A stretch of 58,445 nt of DNA. Source: a virus. The notes beneath the pieces were generated by a model. That model did no database searches. It saw nothing but the letters and a program-made list of their open reading frames with translations, and was not told the origin of the DNA. The stretch covers positions 1 to 58,445 of the IMG/VR virus record IMGVR_UViG_3300009159_005446; one strand, written 5' to 3'. Positions 13,856-57,348 of the stretch are shown here, piece after piece (position 1 is the first letter of the stretch; the number at the start of each line of letters is the position of its first letter). The translations under genes were made by a program, and so were the position numbers.

Positions 13856-13856
13856 G

Positions 13857-32434: not shown

Positions 32435-32754
32435 AACTAGATACCAGTGCAGTAACAAAACTACGCGAGCTTCTTGCAGAAGAAAACAACCCAAACATCA
32501 AACTACGTGTGTTTGTACAAGGTGGCGGTTGTTCGGGCATGCAATATGGGTTTACCCTTGATGAAGTGCAAAACGAAGACGACTTTGATTTTGATTACAC
32601 TGACGTCAAAGTGCTAGTAGACAGCATAAGCATGACCTATTTGCAAAATGCAAACATAAGGTGGAATGACGATATCATGGGCGCAAGCTTTGTAATCGAC
32701 AACCCCAATGCTGAAACCACTTGCGGATGCGGCTCAAGTTTTGCGCCTCGCTAA
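32431..32754 (+). CDS. erpA: A-type Fe-S carrier (ErpA/IscA/HesB)
   Basis: A 107-residue A-type carrier with the three cluster cysteines Cys34 ([11 protein letters not shown]), Cys98 and Cys100 (CGCGSSF). It delivers Fe-S clusters to apo-proteins. It follows the SGNH-like gene by ATGA and closes the infA-sodB run, giving a redox and iron theme. ErpA and IscA are hard to separate by sequence; the symbol is a best guess. Confidence 0.9.
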
Positions 32755-43471: not shown

Positions 43472-44131
43472 ATGCAAATCAAAAGTTTTGGCTGTAGCTT
43501 TATCTACGGCACCGACCTACCTGACGACAAAAAAGCCAGCCGCCCCAGACCCAGTGCCATGACATGGCCAGCACTGCTGGCACAGCGTCTAAAGCTAGAT
43601 TATGCTTGTTATGCCCAGGGCGGGCAGGGCAACACGTTTATCCTGGATCAAATACTATGCGAAGCAGCCAAGCCCACCAGAGACTTGTTTGTAATTGGTT
43701 GGAGCTGGATAGATCGATTTGACTATGTGAACAAACAAGAACTAGACTGGGTGGACTGGAAAGCAATTCGCCCCACAACAGATGATGCTGTGTCCGCCAC
43801 CTACTACAGACACTTGCACAGCCAATATCGAGACAAATTGTCCAGCTTGGTATGTATGCAAAGCGCAATTGATACATTGCAACGCAAAAACATTCCGTTT
43901 ATCATGACTTCTATTGATGACATACTATTTGAACGTCAATGGAACGTGGCCCTGAGCATAGGTGATCTACAGGATTATGTAGAGCCGTATGTGACCAGGT
44001 TTGATGGCACTAACTTTCTTGACTGGAGTCGACAGCAGGGGTTTCCCATTAGTGATACCTGGCACCCGTTAGCGCAAGCACACCAAGCAGCCGCTGATGT
44101 CATGTTGCCCCGGGCTCAGAGCTTGGTGTAA
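43472..44131 (+). CDS. SGNH/GDSL-like protein (paralogue 4)
   Basis: A 219-residue protein. Block I is SFGCSFIYGTDL, block II AQGGQGNTFILDQ, then GWSWIDRFDY and the Asp/His end motif SDTWHPLAQAH. The end matches the SGNH pattern well. No good ribosome site, but it follows the previous stop by four bases. Its 3' end overlaps the convergent methyltransferase gene by 16 bases. Confidence 0.7.
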   Translation: MQIKSFGCSFIYGTDLPDDKKASRPRPSAMTWPALLAQRLKLDYACYAQGGQGNTFILDQILCEAAKPTRDLFVIGWSWIDRFDYVNKQELDWVDWKAIRPTTDDAVSATYYRHLHSQYRDKLSSLVCMQSAIDTLQRKNIPFIMTSIDDILFERQWNVALSIGDLQDYVEPYVTRFDGTNFLDWSRQQGFPISDTWHPLAQAHQAAADVMLPRAQSLV

Positions 44132-44850
44132 ACAAAATACAATCGTTCATTTGCATCCTTTTTAAAGGTGTCTAAATGCAGATTGTACTTTTCAGCAAAT
44201 TCATTTACTACTTCAAAAGTCCAATTAAAGATTTCCACATACGGCCCTGTCTTGTGTGTGATTCCGGGATTGGCACGTAAGAAGAACTTACCACCCGGCT
44301 TTAATAAACTAACACAGTGACTAAAACGTGCTTCAATTTCTTCACGATCATTAAAGTTAATTGATCCCAGGGCCATGATAACATCATGTGATTCGGGCTT
44401 GACTTTGTAGTCTAGGATGTCTACTTCATAATCGGCTTGATTGTTGTAGGGATCGATACCTATTAGGTTCTGTATGCGTCCTTTAAAAGGATGATATCCG
44501 CAACCCACATCTAGCACTTTTTCTGGGTTGAGTGCGTTGACTTCTTCAACCAGTTGCCAGCCTGTGTGCTCATAGTCGTTTGTGCGTGGCTTCCAGATCT
44601 CACTAAAGAAACGCAGGATATAACGCTCGCTTAGGTCGTCCACAATACCACGTAGTGTGCCCACATAGTCACTTGGCAATTGCAGTTCAGCTTCTACAGC
44701 ATCTTTAAACTTGCGGTAACGTGCTGGAGTCCAAGGCAAAGAGTCCACAAGTGTATGCGGCCCAATGGTGCTACGAATTTGCTCGTATTTGGGTAAATTA
44801 AAAGCACGAAGCAAATTTTCGTGCACTAGGTTAAAAATTTTGGTGTTCAT
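44116..44850 (-). CDS. Class I SAM-dependent methyltransferase
   Basis: A 244-residue protein. VLDVGCGYHPFKG (about 113-125) is motif I, LIGIDPYN the second, DVIMALGSINF and LLKPGGKFFLRANPG the later core strands. The 110-residue N-terminal part is helical. Similar proteins occur in T4-like phages; the substrate is unknown. Confidence 0.85.
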   Translation of the reverse strand: MNTKIFNLVHENLLRAFNLPKYEQIRSTIGPHTLVDSLPWTPARYRKFKDAVEAELQLPSDYVGTLRGIVDDLSERYILRFFSEIWKPRTNDYEHTGWQLVEEVNALNPEKVLDVGCGYHPFKGRIQNLIGIDPYNNQADYEVDILDYKVKPESHDVIMALGSINFNDREEIEARFSHCVSLLKPGGKFFLRANPGITHKTGPYVEIFNWTFEVVNEFAEKYNLHLDTFKKDANERLYFVYTKL

Positions 44851-44943: not shown

Positions 44944-45642
44944 ATGCTTACATCAAAAGATTTCGTCGCCAAATTGGTTGCTGATAATCAAGCCCTTTTC
45001 AAAGCCAGCCAACACAATGTTCGTGCTTATTTTGAATCAAAACCAGCTCAAGCAGAGCTAGTGGAACACTTTATCGGCCGCATGGTCAACGAGCGTATGA
45101 ATATGGTTGAAATCAGCCGTGCCATTGCTGACATGCCTGCTGATGCAGATCCAGTTGAGTTGCAGTTGTTAACACAACAAGCACACGACGAAGCTGTGCA
45201 TTTCCGCTTGGTCAAGGAAGTTATTGAACACATTCAAGGTAGCCCAGTTGATGTTGCTGCCGCAATTGCTCGCGAAGCGGCCAAGCCCACTGCCAAAGGT
45301 GCTGGTTTATTGGCCAAGTACAGTGCTGAAACTGATCCTGCTGCCTTGGCTGCTTATCAGTTGGTTGCTGAAGGCCGTGCAGAAGCTGTGTGGGACGAAA
45401 TGGCTGATTGCATTGAAGACACGTTTATCTCTGGCGCATATCGCAAGATTGCCAAGGACGAAGGCTTTCACGCCAAAATTGGTGCTCGTGCACTAGAGAA
45501 GTTTGTGGGCACTGAAGAAGAGCAAGAGCGTATTGAAAGCCTGGTACAAGCCATGCGTCGTGACTTGTATGACATTTCATGCCGAAACACAGTTGCTGCC
45601 GAGTCAGGCCGTGAACTGGTAGCTGACGCATACGGTTGGTAA
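44944..45642 (+). CDS. Ferritin-like di-iron protein
   Basis: A 232-residue all-helical protein with two E-x-x-H motifs: Glu83/His86 (HDEAVHF) and Glu173/His176 (DEGFHAKIG), plus Glu50 and Glu143 in suitable helices. This is the pattern of a di-iron carboxylate four-helix bundle (ferritin-like; oxygenase, peroxidase or nitrogen-oxygenase types). AAGGAG precedes the ATG. It opens the accessory island. Whether it oxidises a metabolite or handles oxygen or iron stress is open. Confidence 0.75.
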   Translation: MLTSKDFVAKLVADNQALFKASQHNVRAYFESKPAQAELVEHFIGRMVNERMNMVEISRAIADMPADADPVELQLLTQQAHDEAVHFRLVKEVIEHIQGSPVDVAAAIAREAAKPTAKGAGLLAKYSAETDPAALAAYQLVAEGRAEAVWDEMADCIEDTFISGAYRKIAKDEGFHAKIGARALEKFVGTEEEQERIESLVQAMRRDLYDISCRNTVAAESGRELVADAYGW

Positions 45643-45643
45643 T

Positions 45644-46204
45644 TTGCTAATAGGATTAAGTCAAAGAATCCTATGGCATCGCACACGAGCGTATGATGCA
45701 CTTGAACATGGATGGTATTCATATTTGAGACAACACACGCTCGTGCCCATAGCGAACGATCCCGAGCAGGATTTCAAAGCAATTGCTCAAGCACTAGATG
45801 CGTTTGTTATCACCGGAGGTGATGACAGTATCATACGCAGAACAACAGAAATTAAACTTGCAAAACTCATGATGTTGCTAGACAAGCCGGTTTTGGGCGT
45901 TTGTCATGGCGCATTTATGTTAACGGATTTACTGGGAGGTAGTGTGGTGGCCGCTGTTGGTGATCACTCAGAAACACTGCATCCTGTAATGTACTTTGGG
46001 GAAGAGGTTGTGGTCAATAGCTTTCATAACTTGGCTATTCAACGATTGCACTCCTCAGGTACTGTGCTGTGTACTGACTCTGACGGACATGTTGAGTCCT
46101 GGATTGATGGTACACTAGCGGGGGTGGTCTGGCACCCCGAACGCATGGATAGTCCATGGATTCCAGATGAAATAGAAAATTTACTTTTTAAGGAAACAAA
46201 ATGA
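45644..46204 (+). CDS. Class I glutamine amidotransferase (PuuD-like)
   Basis: A 186-residue protein started by TTG. VLGVCHGAF has the nucleophile Cys (about 86), WHPERMDSPW the His and Glu of the triad, and FVITGGDD the oxyanion strand. Most like gamma-glutamyl hydrolase or gamma-Glu-GABA hydrolase proteins. It could release ammonia or cleave gamma-glutamyl amides. A perfect 8-base inverted repeat (45650-45657, 45667-45674) lies in its first codons. The next gene overlaps by ATGA. Confidence 0.85.
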   Translation: MLIGLSQRILWHRTRAYDALEHGWYSYLRQHTLVPIANDPEQDFKAIAQALDAFVITGGDDSIIRRTTEIKLAKLMMLLDKPVLGVCHGAFMLTDLLGGSVVAAVGDHSETLHPVMYFGEEVVVNSFHNLAIQRLHSSGTVLCTDSDGHVESWIDGTLAGVVWHPERMDSPWIPDEIENLLFKETK

Positions 46205-47181
46205 AACGTTTATTAGCACTATTGCTTGTTACCGCAAGCACACTAGTCCACGCATGGGAGCCTACAAAGCCCGTTACTGTGTTTGTGGGTAATACTCCCG
46301 GTGCAGGAAATGAAATTGCTTTTAGAAAACTAGCAGATATTGTACAGAAACAAAATCCAAAGTTTGTGTATGTTGTACAAAACATTCCCGGAGCTGATTC
46401 AACGATTGCAAACAATAGATTCTTAACTGAGCCCAACGATGGTTATACCATTAACTTGCCCAGTCACATGAGTTCTTATGTGACAAATGATATCTGGGAA
46501 AAGAAAATTAAAAAGTACAATTACGACACATTTGTTGATGTATTGACCATGGGCAAAAGCCCACTTGTACTAGTGGCTGGTGCAAAAAGTCAAGTTGAAA
46601 CTCCAGTTGATTTTATTAGATATATTCACACATCCACAAAGCCGATTAATATCGCCGTGGGCGGCGGCGCACACCGTACAGCTTATGAATATCTAATAGA
46701 ATCAGCACACGGTGATCGTAATCTTATTAAGCCTATTAGATTTAACGGGCCTGCTCCAGCAGTACAAAGTGTTGCCAGCTTTGATCCCAAGCTAGGCGGA
46801 ACAGAATTTGGTATCATGCCCATTGCTGTTGCCCGTCCACTAGTAGAAGCAGGTAAAGTACGGGCAATTGGATTTACAGGCACACGCACAATGCCACAAT
46901 TCCCCAACGTTCCACTATTAAATTCAGTGGCACCGGGTATTAACGTATATGCCGCTTGGAGCATTCAGTTGCCGCCAGGCACAGATAAAGAAATTGTAGC
47001 ATGGTACCAAAAGAATTTCTCGGCTGCAGTCAAGAGCAAAGAATACGCACAGTGGCGAGATATCAATGTGGTATTCTACGTAGAGGATGAGTTAACTCCA
47101 GCTGGACTTAAGAAACAAATGGACAATTTACGTGCTACCTTTTTGCCGGTACTGAGTAAAATTGATTTAAGTAAAGAATGA
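46201..47181 (+). CDS. TctC-type tripartite tricarboxylate solute-binding protein
   Basis: A 326-residue periplasmic protein: signal peptide 1-18 (ending VHA), then a Bug/TctC domain with VTVFVGNTPGAGNEIAFR, YVVQNIPGADSTIANN and IGFTGTRTMPQFPNVPLL. The family binds carboxylates such as citrate, glutamate or nicotinate and is greatly expanded in Burkholderiales. No TctA or TctB membrane subunits are present, so it would rely on host transporters or act as a sensor. Coupled to the amidotransferase. Confidence 0.9.
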   Translation: MKRLLALLLVTASTLVHAWEPTKPVTVFVGNTPGAGNEIAFRKLADIVQKQNPKFVYVVQNIPGADSTIANNRFLTEPNDGYTINLPSHMSSYVTNDIWEKKIKKYNYDTFVDVLTMGKSPLVLVAGAKSQVETPVDFIRYIHTSTKPINIAVGGGAHRTAYEYLIESAHGDRNLIKPIRFNGPAPAVQSVASFDPKLGGTEFGIMPIAVARPLVEAGKVRAIGFTGTRTMPQFPNVPLLNSVAPGINVYAAWSIQLPPGTDKEIVAWYQKNFSAAVKSKEYAQWRDINVVFYVEDELTPAGLKKQMDNLRATFLPVLSKIDLSKE

Positions 47182-47807
47182 AATATATCTTTGTAGCCGG
47201 TGCTCCAGGCTCAAAATGGAGCAGTGTAGTTAAAAACATCTACTATAGTCCCAGCGTTGATCGTTCGGACTATAGAGATGAATGGACTTATTATCATGAC
47301 GCATCGGGCAAAATGGAACTCATGCACCTGGGTGCGTACTTTGACCCAGGTATGGCGTCGCCCTTGCCCGAGGATTTGACCACGTTGAATCGGCAGCAAC
47401 TAGAAGAAATATTTGCTGAGCCATTTCAATTTAAAGAATCTCCGGGTGTACGCATTATCAAAAGCCATGTGTTCTCAAATCACATTGACTATTTGCGAGA
47501 ATTATTCCCCGAAACACCCATTGTGATTGTGCATCGCAATGATGATGCATGCCTGGGTTGGTGGGTCAAATGCGGTCATTTTGATATAACATATCCTGAT
47601 TATCATGAGTATTTTCGAGACTTAAAGAACATGGCACAGATCATTCGGAGTCAGAATAAAGACATATTGGCCGCATGGTGGAAATACAATGATAAGCCTG
47701 TAATGGACAACAATCTACGACTGGCTGCGGCCCTGGGCATAGATGCACCTCCCGCAGAATACACACAAGAATACGCAGTAAACGACATAAGGGTAAAAGT
47801 AATATGA
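47178..47807 (+). CDS. Sulfotransferase-like P-loop protein (A)
   Basis: A 209-residue protein. FVAGAPGSKWSSVVKNIY gives a P-loop-like PSB strand of the sulfotransferase type, and VIVHRNDDACLGWWVKCG (about 114) the second, 3'-phosphate-contact region. No standard catalytic His can be assigned with certainty. ATGA overlaps on both sides place it in the island with an APS-kinase-like gene, which strengthens a PAPS-dependent role. Confidence 0.6.
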   Translation: MKYIFVAGAPGSKWSSVVKNIYYSPSVDRSDYRDEWTYYHDASGKMELMHLGAYFDPGMASPLPEDLTTLNRQQLEEIFAEPFQFKESPGVRIIKSHVFSNHIDYLRELFPETPIVIVHRNDDACLGWWVKCGHFDITYPDYHEYFRDLKNMAQIIRSQNKDILAAWWKYNDKPVMDNNLRLAAALGIDAPPAEYTQEYAVNDIRVKVI

Positions 47808-48469
47808 TAACAGACGAATTTAAAAGCAGTTGGGATTTCACCAAAAGCACCAGCACATACCATTTTGATAGTAAAAGACTGGATCGGTTTGAAGATGTTG
47901 TTGCACATCTAGGACACATTGAACCCACATGGCTGGCAGATGTAGACAACATTGTTGCTGACAGCAAGCCTGCAACCTGGGAAACACGTGGCTATAAAGG
48001 CGAAGGAGTGTTGCCCCCACGTGAGGATCTAGTAGCAGAAGAATATGATCTTGAGCGTGTGGGTGCAGATCCCAAAATGATTATTACTCATTTGAATTGG
48101 AACATGCCCGAGTCGCTTAAAAAGATTTCCAAGCAGTTTGCGCTAGATGACTGCATGGAACGTATTCATGTGCAACAGCCCGGGGAAGTGTGGAATCTAC
48201 ACATGGACAAACTACAGAAATGGAATCCCGAAGATCCCAGTCGTATAATGCGTATCTTTATACAATTGACTGATTGGCAACCGGGGCAGTTCTGGGAATA
48301 TGGTAATCATCACTGGAATCAATGGCGTGCTGGGGATGTGTCAACATTTGACTGGGCCAACATGCCGCACTCAACAGCCAATGCTGGACATCATGCCCGA
48401 GTAACACTACAGCTCACAGGTGTAATCTCTGATCGCACACAAGAATTCCTAGCTAACTTGCCAAGATGA
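47804..48469 (+). CDS. Asp/Asn hydroxylase-like Fe(II)/2OG oxygenase
   Basis: A 221-residue protein. A facial triad candidate is His133-x-Asp135 (WNLHMDKLQ) with His189 (MPHSTANAG), and Arg199 for 2-oxoglutarate (ARVTLQL). Spacing fits aspartyl/asparaginyl beta-hydroxylase-type enzymes. It would hydroxylate a small molecule or protein residue. Sits between two sulfotransferase-like genes with ATGA overlaps. Confidence 0.75.
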   Translation: MITDEFKSSWDFTKSTSTYHFDSKRLDRFEDVVAHLGHIEPTWLADVDNIVADSKPATWETRGYKGEGVLPPREDLVAEEYDLERVGADPKMIITHLNWNMPESLKKISKQFALDDCMERIHVQQPGEVWNLHMDKLQKWNPEDPSRIMRIFIQLTDWQPGQFWEYGNHHWNQWRAGDVSTFDWANMPHSTANAGHHARVTLQLTGVISDRTQEFLANLPR

Positions 48470-49092
48470 AAACACTGTTAATCATTACAGGGCCGCAAGG
48501 TTCGGGTAATCATTTATGGAGCAAGATCTTTGCACAGCATCCTGATGTGTATGGCTGGCATGCCTTATTGCATGAATACTGGATAGGGCATGATCAAGAA
48601 CCCTTTGCAGCCTGCTGGGAGAACCCCGATCTGCTAAAGGATTTTAACTGGGGCGAGTGCAAATACTTTGTAACCGGTGTCAGCACACCTTACATGCTCA
48701 ACGGTGAGCGTACTGTGCCCAACATTGTGCGTTTTGCTGCCACAGCCATGGGCCTGGGCATACAGGTAAAGATTGCCATTATCGGGCGTGATCGTAACGT
48801 ATTAAACTATCAAGAGACTCGTGTGCGTGGTGATGCCACATATGATATTGCGTTAAAAGAATATGAGAAGTTACGCACATGGAGCCCGGTATTTTTAAGT
48901 TACGAATTACTGCATCTTTATGGCAATCTTTATCTACAACAAATTGCCAATCAATTGGAATTTCCCATTGATTATTCCGGTCCCCAACTGGCAAATATTT
49001 TAACAGATGATACCAACAGTAAATATTTCAAACCCGTGCACCATCATCCCACAGATGATCTAGCACGACACACTTCAAGGAAATGGCGATGA
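48466..49092 (+). CDS. Sulfotransferase-like P-loop protein (B)
   Basis: A 208-residue protein with IITGPQGSGNHLWSKIF (about 6-22), a P-loop strand-turn like that of sulfotransferases, and KIAIIGRDRNVLNYQ (about 104-118) for the 3'-phosphate site. The end is basic and His-rich. ATGA overlaps connect it to the hydroxylase and to the kinase fusion. Confidence 0.6.
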   Translation: MKTLLIITGPQGSGNHLWSKIFAQHPDVYGWHALLHEYWIGHDQEPFAACWENPDLLKDFNWGECKYFVTGVSTPYMLNGERTVPNIVRFAATAMGLGIQVKIAIIGRDRNVLNYQETRVRGDATYDIALKEYEKLRTWSPVFLSYELLHLYGNLYLQQIANQLEFPIDYSGPQLANILTDDTNSKYFKPVHHHPTDDLARHTSRKWR

Positions 49093-49886
49093 CAGCACAA
49101 CGTATATTAATCATGGGCTTGCCTGGCGCAGGCAAAACTTATCTAGCACAGCACATACTAGAACATTTACAAGCAGAGCGCAAACGTGTGCGTTGGCTCA
49201 ATGCTGACGATGTGCGTAAAGAATACAATGACTGGGACTTCTCAGAAGCCGGACGTATTCGGCAGAGCATGCGTATGCGTACACTAGCAGATTCATTTAG
49301 TGACGTGGATTATGTGATCTGCGACTTTGTTGCACCGCTAGTGGAAATGCGCAACAACTTCAAAGCAGATTGGACCGTGTGGGTTGACACAATTGACCGG
49401 GGTCGATTTGAAGATACCAACCGGGCGTTTGTTGCCCCTGAAGTATATGACTTCCGCATCACTGAACAAAACGGTGAGAAATGGGGCGAGTTCATTGCCG
49501 CACACATACTAGATAACAGACGTAGACCAACTTTTGATTGGCAACAAGAAACTGTGCAAATGTTGGGTCGCTGGCAGCCTTGGCATGCCGGTCACCGTGC
49601 GTTATTTGAACGAGCCATAGCCAAAACTGGGCAAGTTTGTATAATGATCCGGGATTGTCAAGGCTGGCAGGGATCCAACCCTTTTGCTATAGAACAAGTT
49701 AAATCATTTATTCGTCGAGACCTAGACATGTTGTATCAAGGACAGTATGAAATACAAGTTGTGCCCAATATTGTCAACATCACATATGGTCGAGATGTTG
49801 GTTACCAAATCGAACAAGAATCATTTGATTCTGCAATAACAGACATTTCAGCTACTAAAATTCGAAAAGACATGGGCTTGAAATAA
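49089..49886 (+). CDS. APS kinase-like domain fused to nucleotidylyltransferase
   Basis: A 265-residue two-domain protein. Residues 1-140 resemble CysC: Walker A GLPGAGKT (10-17), NADDVRKEYNDWDFSEAGRI (38-57) like the DGDNVR-x-DLGFS region, and VWVDT. Residues 150-265 form a HxGH nucleotidylyltransferase: GRWQPWHAGH (160-169) and ISATKIR (253-259), as in NadM/NadR-type or cytidylyltransferase enzymes. CysC-ATP sulfurylase fusions make PAPS, but this C-domain looks smaller and NMN-adenylyltransferase-like, so a NAD-linked role is an alternative. The fusion order is unusual. Confidence 0.75.
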   Translation: MTAQRILIMGLPGAGKTYLAQHILEHLQAERKRVRWLNADDVRKEYNDWDFSEAGRIRQSMRMRTLADSFSDVDYVICDFVAPLVEMRNNFKADWTVWVDTIDRGRFEDTNRAFVAPEVYDFRITEQNGEKWGEFIAAHILDNRRRPTFDWQQETVQMLGRWQPWHAGHRALFERAIAKTGQVCIMIRDCQGWQGSNPFAIEQVKSFIRRDLDMLYQGQYEIQVVPNIVNITYGRDVGYQIEQESFDSAITDISATKIRKDMGLK

Positions 49887-50777
49887 ATGCCGCATATCCC
49901 GTATCATATTCGAGTTTGGGGGCGCGGCATTGGTCAAGCAACAGAGTCTGGCATGGATGCATATGATCGATGCGGCCCCGAAGCCACAGAACATTTTCGA
50001 AATTACCCTTGGCCCATTGAGTACAATTTCAACTCTAGAGGATTTCGAGACACTGAATGGCCACGAGATTTTAACGAATTAAAATCAGCAATATGGTGCG
50101 TGGGCGACAGTTTTACACTGGGCATTGGCTCGCCTAGACAGCACACTTGGCCGTATCAACTGGGAGAATTAACTGGTAGTAGAGTAATGAATTGCAGTAT
50201 GGACGGTGCTAGTAATGAATGGATCAGTGATTTAGCCGTTAATATACTAGATGCATTTGATCCTCCCAACATGGTAATAATGTGGAGTTACACCCATCGT
50301 CGAGCAGGAATTGGCCAAAAAACCCCAAACAAAATAGTATACGACCGTGTACCACAGTGGAAAATCACATATGATGACATGCGCGAAATATTCTGGCCTA
50401 GGTGCAATACTCTAGCACAGTTCAATGCTTTGCCAATAGAGATCAAACAGCGAGTATTGGATAAAATTGGTGAAGACCAATTTCAAAATGATCTCACTGC
50501 ACGAATGCACTATGTTAGATCAACCGATCAAGATGATCTAGAAAACCTTAAACAATGCATTGAATGTGTGCAAAAATATCAGCGACAACATATTGTGCAT
50601 GCCGCAATACCACAATTTGCCCCCGAGCACATGATGTTAGCAAGTCATGCTATTATTGAGCAACAACCACAGTGGATTCCACAATTTCAAAATTTAGATC
50701 TTGCCCGCGACAGTCATCACTTTGATATCAAGACGTCAAAGTGGGTAGCTGAGCAGGTGCAACCGCTGTTGTTGTAA
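49887..50777 (+). CDS. SGNH/GDSL-like protein (paralogue 5)
   Basis: A 296-residue protein, the longest and most canonical of five: block I WCVGDSFTLGIG, block II MDGASNEWISD, block III WSYTHRRAG and the terminal ARDSHHFDIKTSKWVAE (Asp/His). The N-terminal EYNFNSRGFRD matches that of paralogue 2. It starts directly after the fusion gene stop. Its end overlaps the convergent gene 50728-51891 by 50 bases. Confidence 0.75.
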   Translation: MPHIPYHIRVWGRGIGQATESGMDAYDRCGPEATEHFRNYPWPIEYNFNSRGFRDTEWPRDFNELKSAIWCVGDSFTLGIGSPRQHTWPYQLGELTGSRVMNCSMDGASNEWISDLAVNILDAFDPPNMVIMWSYTHRRAGIGQKTPNKIVYDRVPQWKITYDDMREIFWPRCNTLAQFNALPIEIKQRVLDKIGEDQFQNDLTARMHYVRSTDQDDLENLKQCIECVQKYQRQHIVHAAIPQFAPEHMMLASHAIIEQQPQWIPQFQNLDLARDSHHFDIKTSKWVAEQVQPLLL

Positions 50778-51891
50778 GCGCCAGTTCAGGATCCCAAGCG
50801 CGATATTCTTGTTGTGCTCGGCTTTGTAAATCATCCATGCTCAAGGGCTGGGCAATGTCAGAGTTGCCTTGCGCCCAGTTATTGTAAGCATCAAGACATT
50901 CTTGAATATTTCGAATCATAAACATTTTTTCAGCTAGAGTTTGTTTTTTGATTGGTATTGTTGTGGGCAAAATCCCCAGCTCTTGCATGCGGTCAATGCT
51001 TTCCCGTGCTTGCACATACTTTTCTTGGTGCTGTTGCAGGTATTCTTGATGCACCCGTGGCAGGTAATCTCTAACAGTGGCAGGTGCCAATGCAGTTGTG
51101 CTGGTCAGCTGTTGCTGTGTTAGTTGCAACATCTGCTGGGGCGTTTGCATAGCCAATGCTCCAATGTCACTGTTTAAATAATGACAGCGATTCCAGTCTG
51201 CAAACTCTTGGCCAAATGTTTGATTCCAGGTTATTCGTTCAGGCTGGCCAGCAAATACTGGAAGATCTAGTATAAAACGTTCAATATTGGGCAAGTCTTG
51301 TTCATAATGAAAATATGTTCCTATAGAGAAATGATCTTCGCTCCACTTGATATAGTCTCGATATCTTTGCAAATGACTCAACAATTGCTCTGGGGGTATC
51401 TTGGTCTTGGAACTGTAAAGACTAAAAAAGGTATTGATTTTTTCTTGTGCGCTGTAAACATTCAATCGTTTGGTAATACCATTGATACTCCAGCTCAAGG
51501 CATGCTCAAAAAGATTTTGTCTGCGGCAACTGATTACATAAAAATTATCATCGAGATATCGATAAAATGGCACTTGATCCGCAATGGAGTCCTGGCGCTG
51601 GCGCATGTGATAGTGTGCGACCCTGGCAGTTTTATAGTGATCCACTGTGGCCAATAATTCAGTGACCTCGGGCAGACTTTGATAATAGCTGTCACTGGAT
51701 TTGGCATTGACCCATTGTTTTCTCAACAGTTCACGATTGAATTCAGGATTGAAGTACTTGCCAATACCATTTGTGAGTTCATGTAGGTTAATCACCGGAC
51801 GATCAAATTGGTGCAACTGCATGTACACTGTTAAAATGCGTTGTAGCAAGGTGCTACCCACTGCGTCTGGTGTTAGAATTAAAACGTTCAT
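50728..51891 (-). CDS. Conserved T4-like phage protein, sulfotransferase-like start
   Basis: A 387-residue protein with LILTPDAVGSTLLQRILTVY (about 4-23), VINLHELTNG, YRYLDDNFYVISCRRQNLFE and HALSWSINGITKRLN. I recall strongly similar proteins, one per genome, in T4-like phages of marine and freshwater hosts. The first strand resembles the sulfotransferase P-loop. The C-terminal 150 residues are Gln-rich and helical. A GTAAATA late box lies five bases before the ATG. Confidence 0.75.
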   Translation of the reverse strand: MNVLILTPDAVGSTLLQRILTVYMQLHQFDRPVINLHELTNGIGKYFNPEFNRELLRKQWVNAKSSDSYYQSLPEVTELLATVDHYKTARVAHYHMRQRQDSIADQVPFYRYLDDNFYVISCRRQNLFEHALSWSINGITKRLNVYSAQEKINTFFSLYSSKTKIPPEQLLSHLQRYRDYIKWSEDHFSIGTYFHYEQDLPNIERFILDLPVFAGQPERITWNQTFGQEFADWNRCHYLNSDIGALAMQTPQQMLQLTQQQLTSTTALAPATVRDYLPRVHQEYLQQHQEKYVQARESIDRMQELGILPTTIPIKKQTLAEKMFMIRNIQECLDAYNNWAQGNSDIAQPLSMDDLQSRAQQEYRAWDPELALTTTAVAPAQLPTLTS

Positions 51892-51896
51892 ATGGG

Positions 51897-51909
51897 TATT
51901 TACTAAATA
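51897..51909. promoter_or_regulatory. Palindromic pair of late promoter boxes
   Basis: TATTTACTAAATA is a perfect palindrome that writes GTAAATA on the minus strand and CTAAATA on the plus strand, between divergent genes starting at 51891 and 51938. Confidence 0.6.
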
Positions 51910-51937
51910 TTTTTAACTTGGTATATTATTAAATCAC

Positions 51938-52987
51938 ATGAACAAAATAATTAACAGCCACACCAACTGGGGGCGACTGCAGGAAGTATGGCTAGGCGAT
52001 GTTTATCCTGCTTCTTGGTACGATCATTTACAGTCAGATGTGCGTGATTGTTTCCATGAACTGACTGAAAACACTCAACAAGATCTTGCTATAATTCAGC
52101 GCCGTCTTGAAGAGTTTGGTGTGCGTGTGCGTAGACCCGAATATACCCGGATTGAAGATTACATGCGTGGCGATTTTCTAATCAAACCACACATAACTCC
52201 CCGGGATGATTTTGTTGTTGTGGGCAATACTCTTTATGGCCTGCAAAAGACCACATCGCCTTGGCAGCACATTCTAGATGAATATCAAGCTGCTGGGGAG
52301 GATGTACAGTATCGCATGATCAACGGTCCTCTCAATATAAATGGTTCCAATGTGGTGCGTGTGGGGCGGGACATATATATTGATCTCATGTGGGAAGCTC
52401 GTGCCCTGGGGTCAGAAGACATTTTGACCAATAGATTCCACAATGTGTTTGCAAATCAATTCAGAGATTATCGAGTTCATTTGGTGTTTAATGGGGGACA
52501 TATTGACGGATGTTTTGCTGTGCTCAAACCCGATGTGCTGATAGCCAGCAAATACTTTGAAAACTACGATGAAACTTTTCCAGGTTGGACAAAAATCAAC
52601 ACCAGCCTGCCAGAATTTCACAATCACACTCCCAATTTGACTGATGTGCCCAACTTTCTCAAATGGCATGTGCCCGGTGCCAATAATCGTGCATTTAATC
52701 AGCACGTGATAGATCATGCCATGACATGGGTGGGCAACTATACCGAAACATATTTTGAAATAAATTGTCTAGTAATTGACGAAAAGAATGTCATGGTCAT
52801 GGGCGAACATCCAGCCGTGTTTCGTGAGCTTGAACAACATGGAATTACTGCACACTCAGTACCGTTTAGAACCCGTACATTCTGGGATGGCGGTGTGCAT
52901 TGCTTGACCTTGGACATACGCAGAGATGACACCCCTGTAGACCTATTCCCCGCTCGCGGCGACCCCGGAATCACTATACTCCGATAA
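51938..52987 (+). CDS. Amidinotransferase family protein (1)
   Basis: A 349-residue guanidino-group-modifying enzyme of the glycine/scyllo-inosamine amidinotransferase type. Candidate triad: Asp145 (VGRDIYID), His188 (NGGHIDG) and Cys322 (DGGVHCLTLDIRR). RLQEVWLGDVYPASW is the family start motif. Such enzymes move the amidino group from arginine to an amine, giving a guanidino compound and ornithine. A diverged copy lies at 54480. No ribosome site is obvious; promoter is the palindromic late box. Confidence 0.88.
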   Translation: MNKIINSHTNWGRLQEVWLGDVYPASWYDHLQSDVRDCFHELTENTQQDLAIIQRRLEEFGVRVRRPEYTRIEDYMRGDFLIKPHITPRDDFVVVGNTLYGLQKTTSPWQHILDEYQAAGEDVQYRMINGPLNINGSNVVRVGRDIYIDLMWEARALGSEDILTNRFHNVFANQFRDYRVHLVFNGGHIDGCFAVLKPDVLIASKYFENYDETFPGWTKINTSLPEFHNHTPNLTDVPNFLKWHVPGANNRAFNQHVIDHAMTWVGNYTETYFEINCLVIDEKNVMVMGEHPAVFRELEQHGITAHSVPFRTRTFWDGGVHCLTLDIRRDDTPVDLFPARGDPGITILR

Positions 52988-52991
52988 TTGG

Positions 52992-52999
52992 GTTAAATA
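52992..52999 (+). promoter_or_regulatory. Late promoter box GTTAAATA next to start
   Basis: GTTAAATA then ACAAC and the ATG at 53005, the same arrangement as before 42363. Confidence 0.5.
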
Positions 53000-53004
53000 A
53001 CAAC

Positions 53005-53472
53005 ATGTGGATCTTGCACTTTTTACCGGACGCTTTTATAACCTGGTTTGCCAACCTGGTACTACTGGCAGGCGTGGCATTGACTGTGATGGGCTTGTTT
53101 GTTCATAGGCTGCCCATTCCTGTTTTGTACCAGTACCAGTTGATGTTTAAACTACTGGGCATTGTGGTGCTATGTGCCGGCGTGTATCTTCGTGGTGGCG
53201 TGGCAGTAGAACAGGCCTGGCGTGATCGAGTGGCCGAAGTAGAAGCAAGATTAAAACAAGCAGAAGAAATTTCACAGCGTGAAAACACACGTATAGAAGC
53301 CCAAGTGGTCACACGAACTCGTACTGTACGAGAGCGAGCTCAGGAGATTGTGAAGTACGTGGATCGAGAAATCGTCAAGTACGACACAAAGTTTGCGCCC
53401 GGCGGCATTTGTGAAATACCACAGGAATTTATAACAGCACACAATCGTGCGGCAGAGGTACCAGCAAAATGA
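53005..53472 (+). CDS. Inner-membrane spanin-like (Rz-type) protein
   Basis: A 155-residue protein with two hydrophobic stretches (about 11-33 and 44-63), then a long charged helix (70-125) and a Cys-containing end GGICEIPQEFITAHN. Coiled-coil periplasmic parts and this ending are seen in i-spanins of T4-like phages. A lipoprotein o-spanin candidate lies at 54194. Together they would fuse the membranes at lysis. ATGA overlap with the next gene. Confidence 0.7.
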   Translation: MWILHFLPDAFITWFANLVLLAGVALTVMGLFVHRLPIPVLYQYQLMFKLLGIVVLCAGVYLRGGVAVEQAWRDRVAEVEARLKQAEEISQRENTRIEAQVVTRTRTVRERAQEIVKYVDREIVKYDTKFAPGGICEIPQEFITAHNRAAEVPAK

Positions 53473-54194
53473 GAGCAAATGAAATCTTCACTGAAGCATG
53501 GAGTCAAAAATACAAAAACAGTATCAACTGCAGCCATCCCAAAGGGTTTAGCCAGCGAGCACACTGTGCAGGCAAAAACAAACACAACGAATCAATTGAA
53601 ATGGAAATGGTGTGTGAAGACTGTGGCATGTGCCAAACACACGGAAATCTCAGCGAGATCAAGAAGGGTGCAAAAGATGCAAATGGTTACACACGTTGCT
53701 GGCCAGGCAAGCATGCCGAAGGCACTAAAACGGGCAAAAACGGCGGACAAGTCCGTAACTGTGTGCCAAACGAAAGCGCAGAATTAACACAAGAGTTTGA
53801 TCTAATAGAAAATATCATTGAAGGTATTGCGGCACAGAATGGTGTAGATGCTGAAGCAGTATGGGCGGATTTAGAGTCGCTGACAGAAGATGAGCTGTAT
53901 GCGTTTGCCGTAACTTCGCAACTGAACGAAGACTGGCAAAAGGCCAACAAGCGCGACAAAACAGATAGCATGAGTCAAAAGGCTGTGAACTCTTATCGCA
54001 GAGAGCATCCGGGATCAAAACTAAAGACTGCCGTGACCACTAAGCCTAGCAAATTAAAAAAGGGCTCTAAAGCCTCCAAGCGACGCAAAAGCTATTGCTC
54101 ACGCTCACGTGGCCAAATGAAAATGCACAGTATCTCATGTGCTAAAACTCCCGACAAGGCCATTTGCAAAGCCCGTAGACGTTGGAACTGCTGA
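53469..54194 (+). CDS. Cys-rich basic phage protein, 241 aa
   Basis: A 241-residue protein with 14 or so Cys. Motifs: INCSHPKGFSQRAHCAGK, CEDCGMC, YTRCWPGKHAEGTKTGKNGG and, after an acidic middle (about 100-150), RKSYCSRSRGQMKMH to RRRWNC. The last pattern (RRKSxCxRxxGxM...RRWNC) recurs in many phage proteins as a short basic module. The first half looks zinc-binding. Unknown function, lying between the spanin candidates. Confidence 0.65.
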   Translation: MRANEIFTEAWSQKYKNSINCSHPKGFSQRAHCAGKNKHNESIEMEMVCEDCGMCQTHGNLSEIKKGAKDANGYTRCWPGKHAEGTKTGKNGGQVRNCVPNESAELTQEFDLIENIIEGIAAQNGVDAEAVWADLESLTEDELYAFAVTSQLNEDWQKANKRDKTDSMSQKAVNSYRREHPGSKLKTAVTTKPSKLKKGSKASKRRKSYCSRSRGQMKMHSISCAKTPDKAICKARRRWNC

Positions 54195-54460
54195 TGAAAT
54201 ACCTGCTGACAATCGTTTTGCTATTATCGGGATGTTCCACTGTGGTGCCTGTTACTGCTAAATTTCCCGACCCACCGGGCAAGGGCGCACTAGTACGTTG
54301 CCCCAACTTGCAACAGCTACAAAACGATGCAAAATTAAGTGACATAGCCCGCACAATCACAGTCAACTACAGCACCTACTATGAGTGCGCAATCCGAGCA
54401 GATGCCTGGCAGGAATGGTATCAAGTACAAAAACACATATTCGATCAAGCTTCAAAATAA
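54194..54460 (+). CDS. Small lipoprotein, o-spanin candidate
   Basis: An 88-residue protein with a lipobox (IVLLLSGCS, Cys about 14) and a helical rest with two more Cys. Size and lipobox fit an outer-membrane spanin (Rz1-type). ATG shares a base with the previous stop. The i-spanin candidate is one gene upstream. Confidence 0.7.
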   Translation: MKYLLTIVLLLSGCSTVVPVTAKFPDPPGKGALVRCPNLQQLQNDAKLSDIARTITVNYSTYYECAIRADAWQEWYQVQKHIFDQASK

Positions 54461-54479
54461 TTAACTAGGACTTTAACGC

Positions 54480-55637
54480 ATGACCTCACCCTTAATCAAC
54501 AGCTATACCAACTGGAGTCCGCTTCAAGAGGTATGGCTAGGAGATGTTTACCCTGCTTCATGGTACGATCATTTACAACGTGAAGTGCGTGATTGTTTTT
54601 ACGAGCTGACTGAAAATACCAAACATGATCTAAACATCATACAACAAAAACTTCAAGAGTTTGGCGTAGAAGTTGTTAGACCACAATATGACAAAATTGA
54701 AAACTATATTGATGGATATGGTAATCTAGTCAAGCCACAAATTACTCCACGAGACAATTTCTTGGTTTATGGCAACAAATTCATACTACAACAAGGCGTG
54801 GCCTGGCGGTACGATGACAATGTAACTGATATCACTCACTCCTGGGAACATGCCTTGACAAGGTATCGCAATGATCCTGGCAGTGAAGTTGTATCAGCAT
54901 CATTGCCCTTGGCCATGGGAATCATATCCGGTGCCAACACAGTCCGAGTGGGTCGAGACATTTACCTTGACGTGTGGATAAACAACTGGGCTGAGGCCAG
55001 AAAAGAAAACTATCAAAAACATATTGCTCCGTTATTTCCTAACAGTCGAGTGCATTTGCTCAGTAATGGTGGTCATATCGATGGGTGTTTTGCTGTTATC
55101 AAACCTGGTGTGTTGTTAACTGACAGATATTTTTCTGATTATGAAAACACGTTCCCGGGGTGGGCAAGAATTGAAATACAAAGTCCGGAATTTGAAAATC
55201 ATGTAGCACCAGACAGTTTAGATAGTATGCGCCAGCCCAGGGCCAATCCTAGAAAATTCTTTTTAACCGGCCCCCCACAAGAATCAGTACGCAACCCACG
55301 TGCAGTTAATGTGCCAGAAATAGATAAATCATCATTGTCACATGCATTTAATGAATATGTGATTGCCCATGCGCTGGACTGGGTAGGGGATTACACTGAA
55401 ACATTCTTTGAAGTAAACTGCCTGGTCATAGATGAAAAGAATGTGCTTATTCTAGGCGAGAATGAAAACGTAGTACGTGCGCTTGAACAACATGGGGTTA
55501 CCGCACACTCGGTTCCGTTTAGAACACGCAGTTTTTGGGACGGTGGACTACACTGTCTCACACTGGACATACGCAGAGATGATACCCTTGTAGACCTATT
55601 TCCCGAGCGAGATCAACAACTGTACCAATACTACTAA
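54480..55637 (+). CDS. Amidinotransferase family protein (2)
   Basis: A 385-residue paralogue of the protein at 51938, nearly identical at both ends (LQEVWLGDVYPASWYDHLQ, HSVPFRTR, LHCLTLDIRRDD). Candidate triad Asp160, His199, Cys359. It has extra segments near 75-125 and 240-290, so the substrate pocket could differ. The last 10 residues diverge. Duplicate enzymes with conserved catalytic residues suggest two related substrates. Confidence 0.88.
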   Translation: MTSPLINSYTNWSPLQEVWLGDVYPASWYDHLQREVRDCFYELTENTKHDLNIIQQKLQEFGVEVVRPQYDKIENYIDGYGNLVKPQITPRDNFLVYGNKFILQQGVAWRYDDNVTDITHSWEHALTRYRNDPGSEVVSASLPLAMGIISGANTVRVGRDIYLDVWINNWAEARKENYQKHIAPLFPNSRVHLLSNGGHIDGCFAVIKPGVLLTDRYFSDYENTFPGWARIEIQSPEFENHVAPDSLDSMRQPRANPRKFFLTGPPQESVRNPRAVNVPEIDKSSLSHAFNEYVIAHALDWVGDYTETFFEVNCLVIDEKNVLILGENENVVRALEQHGVTAHSVPFRTRSFWDGGLHCLTLDIRRDDTLVDLFPERDQQLYQYY

Positions 55638-55640: not shown

Positions 55641-55665
55641 TGTGTGTACACAAAGGACCACAACA

Positions 55666-56283
55666 ATGAGCAGTATTCTCACGTTGGACCAGCTAACACA
55701 AATGGTCAAAAACCCCTATATCGATCACTGGCACAGTGCTCTAGATCAATTGCTAGATGATTATGAAATTGACACTCCGCTCCGAGTGGCTCATTTTGTT
55801 GCACAATGTGCCCACGAGTCGGGTAACTTTGTGTTTATCAAAGAAAATCTTAATTATAAAGCTGCCAGTCTAATGGCTGTGTTTAAAAAGTATTTCCCCA
55901 CACAGGCGCTGGCACAACAGTATGCCAATCATCCTGAACAGATTGCCAATCGAGTGTATGCTAACCGTATGGGCAACGGCGATGAAGCGTCAGGTGATGG
56001 ATATCGCTACTGTGGCCGTGGGCTTATACAGTTAACAGGTCGGGACAACTACACATTTTTTGCAGGCAGCCTAGGCATTGCAGTGGAAGAAGCCGCTGAG
56101 TACTTGGCCACATTTGAAGGCGCCGCACAATCAGCCTGCTGGTTTTGGGAACAAAACAAGTTAAATAGATTTGCTGATGCAAATGACTGCAAAGGTCTCA
56201 CAAGAGCCATCAATGGTGGCTACATTGGACTAGAAGACCGACAAAAGCATACTGAACACGCATTACATATACTAGGAGCATGA
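55666..56283 (+). CDS. GH19-family endolysin
   Basis: A 205-residue chitinase/lysozyme-like GH19 domain: FVAQCAHESGNF (Glu51 likely catalytic acid), GYRYCGRGLIQLTGRDNY and RAINGGYIGLEDRQ. Phage GH19 proteins degrade peptidoglycan. No signal peptide, so it needs a holin (57366). A late box and AAAGGA precede ATG 55666. A second murein hydrolase of another family is at 17678. Confidence 0.9.
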   Translation: MSSILTLDQLTQMVKNPYIDHWHSALDQLLDDYEIDTPLRVAHFVAQCAHESGNFVFIKENLNYKAASLMAVFKKYFPTQALAQQYANHPEQIANRVYANRMGNGDEASGDGYRYCGRGLIQLTGRDNYTFFAGSLGIAVEEAAEYLATFEGAAQSACWFWEQNKLNRFADANDCKGLTRAINGGYIGLEDRQKHTEHALHILGA

Positions 56284-56285
56284 AC

Positions 56286-56402
56286 ATGTTAGAAACACTA
56301 TTTTGGTTGGCATTGGGCGCATTTGTTGGATGGAATTTTCCACAACCCGACTTTGCAAAACGCATACAGGCCCGCGTCATGGCCGCATTTCGAAAGGATT
56401 AA
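56286..56402 (+). CDS. Small membrane protein, 38 aa
   Basis: A 38-residue protein, MLETLFWLALGAFVGWNFPQ and a basic tail, with one membrane helix. It starts two bases after the endolysin stop. Small proteins with VGWNxPQP are common in T4-like phages next to lysis genes. Role unknown. Confidence 0.65.
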   Translation: MLETLFWLALGAFVGWNFPQPDFAKRIQARVMAAFRKD

Positions 56403-56406
56403 CAAA

Positions 56407-57348
56407 ATGACAAAGACGAATTTTTTAGCAACAATTATTTTGGCCATGGCACCCTTGGTGTCCATGAGTCAAAGTCAAACACCAATTAATATCACAGCAG
56501 TTACACCACAAGGTAGCCCTGCTCAATTTACCAATTACAGTGGATTGAACGCTACATTTACTTTTCAAACACAAAATACATTAAATAGTCCATTCTGTAA
56601 CACTGGTGCAGGCGATGTTTGCACCTTGCCAACTGCCACAGCCGGTGTGAACGCATACCCTATTGCTAACACACGCTGGGGCACATACAAACTCAACAAT
56701 CCCAATGCAGGCTCATGTGCTCCGACATTGTCATTTGGCGGTGCTCAATACTGCTTGTTGGAGTTCCACTTTCATGGACCAGCAGAACACTGGGTCAACA
56801 ACTCAGTGACTGATCTAGAAGTACACTTTGTTTATTTTAAACTGGCTGATTTGACTGGTCCTTATGGATTGTGCAATGCAGATAGTCTCCTGGTATTGGG
56901 TCAACGCATGGTTGGCAATGGCAACACACCAAATGCAGCCTGGGCTAGTGTGTTTAACGCAATACCGGCTGCCAATGCTAGTGGAGCAAATTCAGGTAGT
57001 ACTGTTAGCTTTAATATTGCAAGCATGATGGGCATGGCCAACTTCAATACAGCACCAAGCTATAGATACAGTGGCGGATTAACAGCACCAATTTCCATTG
57101 GTACACTGGGTGCCAACAGTACCTGTGTGGCAACTACTAACCCTGCCAACAGTCGTCCATGGTGGGGCAATCCACAGCGTCAACTAACTCAACAAGCATA
57201 TCCACAAATTGTGTCTTGGGTACTTTTTAGACAACCAATACAATTGTCTGTAGCACAAGTACAACAATTTAAAACTGTATTTCCTGATGGCAATGCCCGT
57301 GCTGTGCAGCCACAGGGTGCTACAGTTTATATTGCCAATCCAAATTGA
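56407..57348 (+). CDS. Secreted alpha-carbonic anhydrase
   Basis: A 313-residue alpha-class enzyme, with a signal peptide (1-about 22). Zinc ligands His121 and His123 (FHFHGPAEH) and His140 (LEVHFVYF), Glu127 and Glu138, and Thr226 (YSGGLTAPIS, the T199 equivalent) are present. Between this and WVLFRQPIQLS stands an insert of roughly 35 residues with a Cys. It would act in the host periplasm, interconverting CO2 and bicarbonate. AAGGA precedes ATG 56407. Codon use and surroundings are phage-like. Confidence 0.92.
   Translation: MTKTNFLATIILAMAPLVSMSQSQTPINITAVTPQGSPAQFTNYSGLNATFTFQTQNTLNSPFCNTGAGDVCTLPTATAGVNAYPIANTRWGTYKLNNPNAGSCAPTLSFGGAQYCLLEFHFHGPAEHWVNNSVTDLEVHFVYFKLADLTGPYGLCNADSLLVLGQRMVGNGNTPNAAWASVFNAIPAANASGANSGSTVSFNIASMMGMANFNTAPSYRYSGGLTAPISIGTLGANSTCVATTNPANSRPWWGNPQRQLTQQAYPQIVSWVLFRQPIQLSVAQVQQFKTVFPDGNARAVQPQGATVYIANPN

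Follow-up and report, generated by a model that had tools for sequence, protein, structure and literature searches.

Bifunctional PAPS synthetases, represented by human PAPSS1/2 and the Aquifex SAT/APS kinase, are chains in which an APS-kinase domain and a HIGH-superfamily nucleotidyltransferase are fused. Sulfotransferases of the PF13469 and PF03567 families have been reported as viral auxiliary genes (PMC8290583), and the loci of sulfated capsules, for example in Vibrio sp. KMM 8419, combine cysNDC with sulfotransferases (PMC11641403). For SAR11, aprAB is described as core and the sulfate pathways as incomplete (PMC12636525).

Here we analyse an island of 10.7 kb in a window of phage DNA (the whole stretch studied, 58,445 nucleotides; Table 1). 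One of its proteins, KNT, shares with PAPS synthetases the fused domain arrangement, a match to APS kinases in both profile and fold, and an association with sulfotransferases. However, it has no ATP-sulfurylase domain (PF01747) and carries instead an NMNAT-like domain of ~118 residues (hereafter NT), giving a total of 267 residues compared with 546–630 in the solved PAPS-synthetase chains listed. As in sulfated-capsule loci, putative PAPS-forming and sulfotransferase genes adjoin; by contrast, the island is phage-borne, one compact fusion takes the place of CysND/CysC, and capsule assembly genes are absent from it. ST1 is linked to the viral auxiliary sulfotransferases by a Pfam score over the cut-off and ST2 by profile comparison, and undoubted members of these families are neighbours of KNT in other phages. 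Compared with them, ST1 and ST2 are short (about 208 residues), have variant phosphosulfate loops and come together with a 2OG hydroxylase and a receptor of the TctC type. We consider the island to be probably a phage sulfation module and not a guanidinium-metabolite cluster.

Organization of the island

All open reading frames listed in the earlier note on this DNA are present where it placed them, and its unbroken overlap chain at 45644–50777 proved exact when gene ends and starts were compared gene by gene (end/start: GAT 46204/TTT 46201, TTT 47181/ST1 47178, ST1 47807/OG 47804, OG 48469/ST2 48466, ST2 49092/KNT 49083 and KNT 49886/SGNH 49887). Of 80 viral contigs that carry KNT, about 20 show the block again, and it is thus more than a chance arrangement. 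A scan of the region for promoters and terminators gave no excess over shuffled sequences. The TctC/Bug-type receptor TTT, inside the chain, had been left unnamed; it is found in 57 of 80 loci anchored on OG.

Table 1 Features of the island and its borders, in window coordinates
Feature	Assignment	Position	Strand	Evidence
Methyltransferase	Methyltransferase, upstream border of the island	44116..44850	-	Methyltransf_25 3.7e-4, below cut-off; in 67/80 OG loci
DIIRON	Ferritin-like di-iron protein, optional partner of GAT	44944..45642	+	PaaA_PaaC 5e-4 (weak), below cut-off; two ExxH motifs
GAT	Class-I glutamine amidotransferase/peptidase C26-like, optional	45644..46204	+	PF07722 1.2e-15
TTT	TctC/Bug-type periplasmic solute-binding protein	46201..47181	+	PF03401 6.4e-19; signal peptide judged by inspection
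ST1	Short sulfotransferase-like P-loop protein	47178..47807	+	PF13469 29.5 bits, curated cut-off 27
OG	Fe(II)/2-oxoglutarate hydroxylase-like (Asp/Asn-hydroxylase type)	47804..48469	+	Conserved residues
ST2	Second sulfotransferase-like P-loop protein	48466..49092	+	hhalign
KNT	APS-kinase domain (~aa 1–145) and HIGH-superfamily nucleotidyltransferase domain NT (~aa 150–267, 49530–49883)	49083..49886	+	Pfam, AlphaFold, Foldseek, profiles
SGNH	SGNH-like protein, usually paired with ST3	49887..50777	+	Lipase_GDSL_2 0.026 only
ST3	Possible distant sulfotransferase	50728..51891	-	TPDAVGSTLLQR loop (GSTLL-type), largely conserved in 9 relatives
AT1	AGAT-family amidinotransferase	51938..52987	+	AGAT 1.9e-9
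AT2	Second amidinotransferase	54480..55637	+	57% identical to AT1

The earlier note had compared the island with guanidinium-metabolite tailoring clusters, in which amidinotransferase, sulfotransferase, APS kinase and hydroxylase serve one pathway, and all four enzyme types do lie within the 10.7 kb. The two amidinotransferases it named are genuine: AT1 matches human AGAT (PDB 2jdx), StrB1, HsvA and SxtG, and its catalytic D145, H188 and C322 align with those of the AGAT family. However, amidinotransferase genes occur in just 2 of the 80 OG-anchored loci, and neither KNT nor ST1 was found in 80 loci anchored on AT1. The amidinotransferases are neighbours of a conserved module, outside it, and represent independent cargo, leaving the single guanidinium pathway with a negligible chance of being right. 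The linkage of amidinotransferase with sulfotransferase or APS kinase that such an sxt-like cluster calls for did not hold across relatives, and the co-occurrence surveys largely refute the analogy. Of the genes proposed to travel together, those for the APS-kinase-like, sulfotransferase-like and 2OG-hydroxylase proteins do form a travelling unit, and a sulfate-transfer pathway is therefore likely; the amidinotransferase genes do not join it. The modification of glycans or virions that the note offered as its alternative may still apply.

GAT and DIIRON, both present as the earlier note had them, form a pair, with 20 loci in common from 22 and 21 (P 3e-13). The pair shows a negative association with KNT, which is found in 5 of 22 GAT loci versus 34 of 63 overall (P 4e-4). 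Because this pair stands apart and the amidinotransferase genes are unlinked, one system accounts for only part of the 10.7 kb. The best NCBIfam match of GAT is NF045546, gamma-glutamyl-CDP-amidate hydrolase (8.2e-17, 61.9 bits, cut-off 250), and the same family is best for three divergent GAT copies (about 62–65 bits). This raises a phosphoramidate pathway like that of Campylobacter MeOPN, with KNT and GAT making a 3'-phospho-nucleotide-amidate for the sulfotransferase-like proteins. Those scores fall far below the cut-off, however, and since GAT avoids KNT and the window, a fragmentary contig, contains no PEP-utilizer-type glutamine kinase (PF00391), we dropped this very improbable idea.

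An APS-kinase domain joined to a small nucleotidyltransferase

The APS-kinase domain of KNT was recognized in the earlier note, which missed the nucleotidyltransferase domain of the same protein. KNT matches Pfam APS_kinase (2.7e-11) and PHROG 10255 'kinase' (1.2e-48), and its profile matches a solved APS kinase (2.1e-15) and NMNAT (2.1e-10) in the PDB. In a Foldseek search of the PDB with the AlphaFold model (pLDDT 88.6), the first 49 of the 50 listed matches were APS-kinase or PAPS-synthetase structures. The invariant D42, R45, N49, F53, R58, R64, F82 and P85 align with solved APS kinases, and both the motif of the substrate site (D-x-[IV]-R-x3-N, F, R) and the F[IV]xP segment are present in KNT. 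At 32 bits against the TIGR00455 equivalog (cut-off 138.7), KNT is thus a divergent APS-kinase relative and not an equivalog by score. We infer that it is a compact PAPS synthetase in which NT replaces ATP sulfurylase; no description of the fusion was found in the open-access literature searched.

The model of NT is of the HIGH-type nucleotidyltransferase kind, and in sequence NT is closer to NMN adenylyltransferases (2qjt, 6.8e-11) than to any ATP sulfurylase. It shares the GRxQPxHxGH, ISxTxIR and NPF motifs with archaeal/NadM-type NMNATs (2qjt, 1f9a), but it is about 50 residues shorter than these (168–181 residues), is fused to an APS kinase, has a near-invariant Arg41 where NMNAT carries Gly in the alignment, and contains an invariant Asn80 and a YGRxVGY block that do not align to archaeal NMNAT. 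The best HMM matches to NMNAT cover about the first 80 positions and leave out the C-terminal part. Foldseek with the NT domain returned only generic HIGH-superfamily matches, none below E 1e-3, so the fold cannot discriminate the substrate. Pfam and NCBIfam profile searches matched NT to no ATP-sulfurylase family, and PF01747 is absent from the window record. As neither PF01747 nor CysD was matched, we suggest that NT may work like, not that it is, an ATP sulfurylase of a known family. In our alignment, NT does not preserve the Gln and Arg with which Sat-type enzymes bind sulfate.

The NMNAT likeness could also mean that KNT is a nicotinamide-riboside kinase/NMN adenylyltransferase acting in NAD salvage or against NAD depletion; an NAD synthetase is encoded in the window (25876–26691) and near KNT in two other loci (L018 and L022). 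Yet the structural neighbours of the kinase domain are APS kinases, NT is much shorter than NMNAT and matched in its N-terminal part, and the context of KNT is one of sulfotransferases, DUF2061 and APS reductase and not of NAD genes, making this role improbable.

The ST1–OG–ST2 unit

The earlier note had proposed two sulfotransferase-like P-loop proteins and a distant third, for which PAPS-binding folds would be expected. For the first two, such a fold is supported by sequence profiles, both being marginal to known sulfotransferase families. ST1, with a G-x-P-G-S-[KR]-W-S loop and R120/D122 conserved in 19 relatives, is assigned from its Pfam match, since its hhalign comparison with the n3-type sulfotransferase family is unconvincing (prob 17). 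ST2 gave no Pfam match; hhalign relates it to a Sulfotransfer_3-type profile (prob 91%, E 1e-6), and its TGPQGSGNH loop and RD are invariant among relatives. ST3 may be a distant member; in hhalign against n3-type sulfotransferases it aligns in the loop only (E 0.047, not significant). The SGNH assignment at 49887–50777 is weak; the SGNH1 (+)/ST3 (-) pair is seen again in L001, L002, L006, L013, L017, L026 and L050. OG found no match in Pfam or PDB profile searches, and its Asp/Asn-hydroxylase-like character is borne out by residues invariant in 16 relatives, namely H133-x-D135, H189/H196 and the 2OG-binding R199 (the HxD...H plus R pattern).

Among the 80 OG-anchored loci, ST1 is present in 71 and ST2 in 69, with ST1 directly upstream of OG in 56 of 71. 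KNT is absent from the fetched flanks of 40 of the 80, and ST1–OG–ST2 may therefore draw its PAPS from the host or have another function. This absence, with the marginal profile scores, would suit a P-loop/hydroxylase modification system unrelated to sulfur that merely neighbours KNT. We regard that as unlikely, given that ST1 exceeds the PF13469 cut-off, ST2 reaches its hhalign E value, and unrelated sulfotransferase families adjoin KNT in many other phages.

KNT in viruses and bacteria

Across 48 viral records, 12 of 19 non-redundant cases have a PF13469 (Sulfotransfer_3) gene no more than 5 kb from KNT, against 2.6 expected (P<2e-4), and for DUF2061 12 of 23 are at most 300 bp away, against 0.16 expected; Sulfotransfer_2 genes are also among the neighbours, and no Sat was found in these records. 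About half of the surveyed contigs with KNT have no recognized sulfotransferase nearby. In a MAG that carries KNT, DUF2061 forms a fusion with CysN, a subunit of ATP sulfurylase (TIGR02034, 538 bits, cut-off 336). In Bradyrhizobium, KNT adjoins a TPR-sulfotransferase (PF13469, 2.2e-44) or Sulfotransfer_3.

KNT is also found in SAR11 and SAR86 chromosomes, with NT as a separate gene of about 124 residues in many SAR11 and in SAR86. Some of its SAR11 orthologues lie inside the aprMBA sulfite-oxidation locus, with cysQ: aprM-aprB-aprA adjoins KNT in six loci, a seventh on a cut contig has AprM only, and cysQ is present in the three aprM-linked loci whose flank reaches it. The passages of PMC12636525 consulted do not mention KNT. 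Sat is missing from nearly all of these KNT-bearing genomes; over SAR11 and SAR86 together, many of them incomplete MAGs or SAGs, it was found in 3 of 36 and CysD in 0 of 36. KNT carriers thus include abundant ocean bacteria in which the textbook sulfate-activating enzyme is nearly always absent.

KNT might be an APS kinase only, fed with APS by host CysDN or AprBA, with NT serving regulation or another adenylyl transfer. CysD is present in Bradyrhizobium and other large-genome carriers, AprA is present in 22 of 32 KNT-bearing SAR11 genomes, which could get their APS from AprBA, and NT is closer in likeness to NMNAT than to ATP sulfurylase. But four SAR86 genomes have no Sat, CysD or AprA above cut-off, so a kinase there would have no APS, and the fusion or adjacency of kinase and NT suggests consecutive steps. 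We therefore give this explanation a minor share of our belief. A broader reading is plausible, though tentative: NT would be a third, previously unrecognized class of ATP sulfurylase, and KNT an exceptionally small PAPS synthetase that supplies the missing APS/sulfate step of SAR11 and that phages use for diverse sulfotransferases.

Proposed pathway and implications

In the proposed sulfation module, NT would first combine ATP and sulfate into APS, the ATP-sulfurylase role. The APS-kinase domain would then phosphorylate the 3'-hydroxyl of APS to give PAPS, a step for which family, fold and context give strong support. ST1 and ST2, by family and linkage, would take the sulfuryl group of PAPS and pass it to an acceptor, a task that may fall to a changing cast of sulfotransferases in other phages. 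Because the ST1–OG coupling is tight, OG may hydroxylate the acceptor itself or one of its amino-acid side chains and so create, or tune, the hydroxyl that becomes sulfated. TTT may capture the substrate or serve as a surface target, and GAT with the di-iron protein could add an optional further modification. Candidate acceptors are a host surface glycan, a virion or tail glycan or protein, and a small molecule.

If this is true, hundreds of environmental phages produce activated sulfate for themselves through an enzyme encoded by one gene, and combine it with sulfotransferases that are exchanged rapidly. This would point to sulfation as a weapon or disguise that is common among phages. KNT would likewise be a concrete candidate for the gap in the SAR11 sulfate pathway, and both roles, in phages and in SAR11, are testable with one small recombinant protein.

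Organization of the island and domains of KNT

The open reading frames of the earlier note are present as it described them, on an IMG/VR virus contig of 58,445 bases that is a genome fragment, and are bordered by a methyltransferase gene and a lysozyme-like gene. Families were assigned with Pfam, NCBIfam, PHROGs and PDB searches. From GAT to SGNH, each gene abuts or overlaps its successor.

Features of the island and other loci discussed, in positions of the window or of the relative named
Feature	Position	Strand	Assignment
Methyltransferase	44116-44850	-	island border
DIIRON	44944-45642		di-iron protein
GAT	45644-46204		glutamine amidotransferase
TTT	46201-47181		TctC/Bug periplasmic receptor (PF03401, 6.4e-19)
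ST1	47178-47807		sulfotransferase-like
OG	47804-48469		Fe(II)/2-oxoglutarate hydroxylase-like
ST2	48466-49092		sulfotransferase-like
KNT	49083-49886	+	APS-kinase and nucleotidyltransferase domains
SGNH	49887-50777		SGNH protein
ST3	50728-51891	-	possible distant sulfotransferase
AT1	51938-52987		amidinotransferase
AT2	54480-55637		amidinotransferase
Lysozyme-like	55642-56283		island border
Carbonic anhydrase	56323-57348		alpha-type-like, signal peptide (by eye)
Binding protein	3467-4297		amino-acid-binding-protein-like (by eye)
Symporter	4307-5584		DctA/GltP-like, dicarboxylate/glutamate
Racemase	7244-7924		amino-acid racemase
Redox/cofactor set	13349-14396, 25876-26691, 31140-31688, 32431-32754		see text
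Small P-loop-like	24468-25094; L031 2076-2669; L007 8397-9350		PGSGG or GGSGG loops
CysN-DUF2061 fusion	L407 1435-3072	-	TIGR02034
Interrupted KNT	L042 10001-10786		TAG in frame

KNT, recorded in the earlier note as an APS-kinase protein, is a fusion of two domains, which that note had missed. The APS-kinase domain comes first, followed by a nucleotidyltransferase (NT) domain with GRWQPWHAGH...ISATKIR; in profile searches of the PDB they matched APS kinase (2.1e-15) and NMN adenylyltransferase (NMNAT; 2.1e-10), respectively. A single AlphaFold model of full-length KNT, built from a 37-row alignment, has a mean pLDDT of 88.6. Among the 50 Foldseek matches listed for it, 49 are to structures of APS kinases or PAPS synthetases (from E 4.7e-7 downward) and the last is to gluconate kinase. 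The protein already belongs to PHROG 10255, labelled just 'kinase'. It scored 32 bits against the curated APS-kinase equivalog (cut-off 138.7), and Pfam and NCBIfam searches gave it membership of none of the known ATP-sulfurylase families. KNT would work like an ATP sulfurylase/APS kinase, which is not to say that it is one.

By predicted fold, the NT domain on its own is a generic HIGH-superfamily nucleotidyltransferase (74-row alignment, one AlphaFold model, pLDDT 89.2); by sequence, it matched NMNATs at 6.8e-11, chiefly over its first 80 positions. This resemblance and the NAD synthetase gene in the window would fit a role for KNT in NAD salvage, a reading disfavoured by its kinase fold and sulfur gene context. 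Arg88 is invariant and Arg41 near-invariant across the 74 rows, whereas NMNATs align a glycine with Arg41. This pattern would fit an acceptor that is small and negatively charged, of which sulfate is an example.

Genes that travel together

Relatives were surveyed by tblastn, mostly with the window's own proteins, from three anchors (KNT, OG and AT1); each survey took the best 80 rows per scan, a non-random sample (for KNT, 80 viral contigs from at least 600 rows), and misses distant homologues and genes outside the fetched flanks. The block TTT-ST1-OG-(ST2)-KNT occurred in about 20 of the 80 KNT-anchored contigs, flanked by the same methyltransferase and H53/lysozyme genes. Around OG, the best 80 contigs carried ST1 (71), ST2 (69), TTT (57), KNT (40), GAT (25), DIIRON (24) and an amidinotransferase (2), and OG began within about 60 bases of the end of ST1 in 56 of 71 loci. 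GAT and DIIRON form one unit: among 63 long contigs, 20 were common to the 22 and 21 that carried them (P 3e-13). The counts at all three anchors make ST1-OG-ST2 the core; KNT and TTT often accompany it, and GAT plus DIIRON is an alternative partner.

The best NCBIfam match of GAT is a gamma-glutamyl-CDP-amidate hydrolase, and we therefore considered a phosphoramidate route of the Campylobacter type (Cj1415-Cj1418). It was rejected on linkage, GAT being negatively associated with KNT (P 4e-4).

Among the best 80 AT1-anchored contigs, tblastn of the fetched flanks found neither KNT nor ST1; there were two distant ST2 matches, and a distant OG-like gene lay nearby in 14. The amidinotransferases are separate cargo. 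The earlier note had likened the gene set to guanidinium-metabolite tailoring clusters; its sulfotransferase and hydroxylase genes do travel together, often with KNT and TTT, but the amidinotransferases seldom accompany them, which removes the analogy. A separate association was seen in L345, L349, L352, L355, L356, L368, L373, L378 and L379, where a gene for a distant OG-like hydroxylase lies about 0.3-1.7 kb upstream of the phage amidinotransferase.

Neighbours of KNT in phages

Other sulfotransferases are frequent neighbours of KNT in contigs without the island. A Sulfotransfer_3 protein lies about 800 bases upstream of KNT in 19 such contigs. Further neighbours are a second Sulfotransfer_3 family, a Sulfotransfer_2 protein and, directly upstream of KNT in L087-L100, a tandem sulfotransferase-like pair whose loops read FTPRSGST and which Pfam did not match, with AhpC-like and AhpD-like genes downstream. 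Because a look at neighbourhoods alone would check expected places only, PF13469 (Sulfotransfer_3) and DUF2061 were sought in 48 whole viral records picked independently of both, with near-identical records dropped and positions permuted within records. For PF13469, KNT was no more than 5 kb away from 12 of 19 matches, against 2.6 expected (0 of 5,000 permutations as high), a count not wholly independent since island-type records have common ancestry. DUF2061, a tiny membrane protein, lay within 300 bp of KNT in 12 of 23 matches (0.16 expected); a profile search did not find it in the window itself. In L407, from a Xanthobacteraceae MAG that also carries KNT, DUF2061 forms one protein with CysN (538 bits, cut-off 336), the GTPase subunit of ATP sulfurylase, which suggests that DUF2061 is a partner of sulfate activation or transport. 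Sat was found in none of the 48 viral records.

In further contigs (L021, L023, L025, L028, L037 and others), KNT sits inside a 7-deazaguanine cluster (FolE, QueD and QueE, assigned by eye). A gene for an RfaE-like nucleotidyltransferase immediately precedes it, and in six contigs it is followed by a gene that by eye is sulfotransferase-like and had no Pfam match. A TAG interrupts the KNT frame in L042, a near-duplicate of L028, and may be a sequencing error or mark an inactivated copy.

Other genes of the phage

The racemase exceeds the curated cut-off for the cysteate racemase CuyB (222.7 bits versus 190) and is possibly a second organosulfur gene of the same phage. The symporter gene is preceded by the binding-protein-like gene; both are transport genes in a phage. 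The redox/cofactor set comprises NAD synthetase (25876-26691, 178 bits), superoxide dismutase and AhpC, with AhpD and HesB/IscA by eye, on one contig. The carbonic-anhydrase-like protein had no NCBIfam match; its gene keeps its place beside the lysozyme gene in some relatives. The small P-loop-like proteins, of which those of the window and L031 had no convincing Pfam match, are possibly more distant sulfotransferase relatives.

KNT in bacteria

Full-length homologues occur in SAR11, SAR86, SAR116, Bradyrhizobium and others (roughly 37-58% identity over the best segment). SAR86 and many SAR11 encode the two domains in neighbouring but distinct genes. The KNT gene of Bradyrhizobium lies beside one for a TPR-sulfotransferase (PF13469, 2.2e-44) or for a Sulfotransfer_3 protein. 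Six SAR11 loci place KNT within aprM-aprB-aprA, and a seventh, whose contig is cut, has AprM. The PAP phosphatase CysQ was present in all three SAR11 apr loci counted as having enough flank (TIGR01331, 4e-60, slightly below cut-off). Among KNT-bearing genomes, many of them incomplete single-cell or metagenome assemblies, Sat, CysD and AprA were found in 3, 0 and 22 of 32 from SAR11 and, above cut-off, in none of four from SAR86. SAR11 genomes carry sulfotransferase genes (PMC2217521), and another account describes aprAB as core in SAR11, with sulfate pathways that are incomplete (PMC12636525). In the KNT tree, phage and bacterial copies are intermixed, with at least seven label changes; the window copy falls in a phage-only clade.

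Proposed pathway

In the simplest reading, the two domains of KNT catalyse consecutive steps. All the catalytic steps are what we infer from observed gene content, domain assignments, predicted folds and co-occurrence, the first above all others: the NT domain would convert sulfate and ATP to APS, the kinase domain would phosphorylate APS with ATP to PAPS, and the sulfotransferases would then use PAPS, with PAP recycled by CysQ in the bacterial loci. The tight pairing of ST1 and OG suggests a single acceptor that is hydroxylated before, or along with, its sulfation. This acceptor may be a glycan of the host surface, in which case sulfation could block competing phages; it may also be a component of the virion or tail, or TTT itself, which is co-transcribed.
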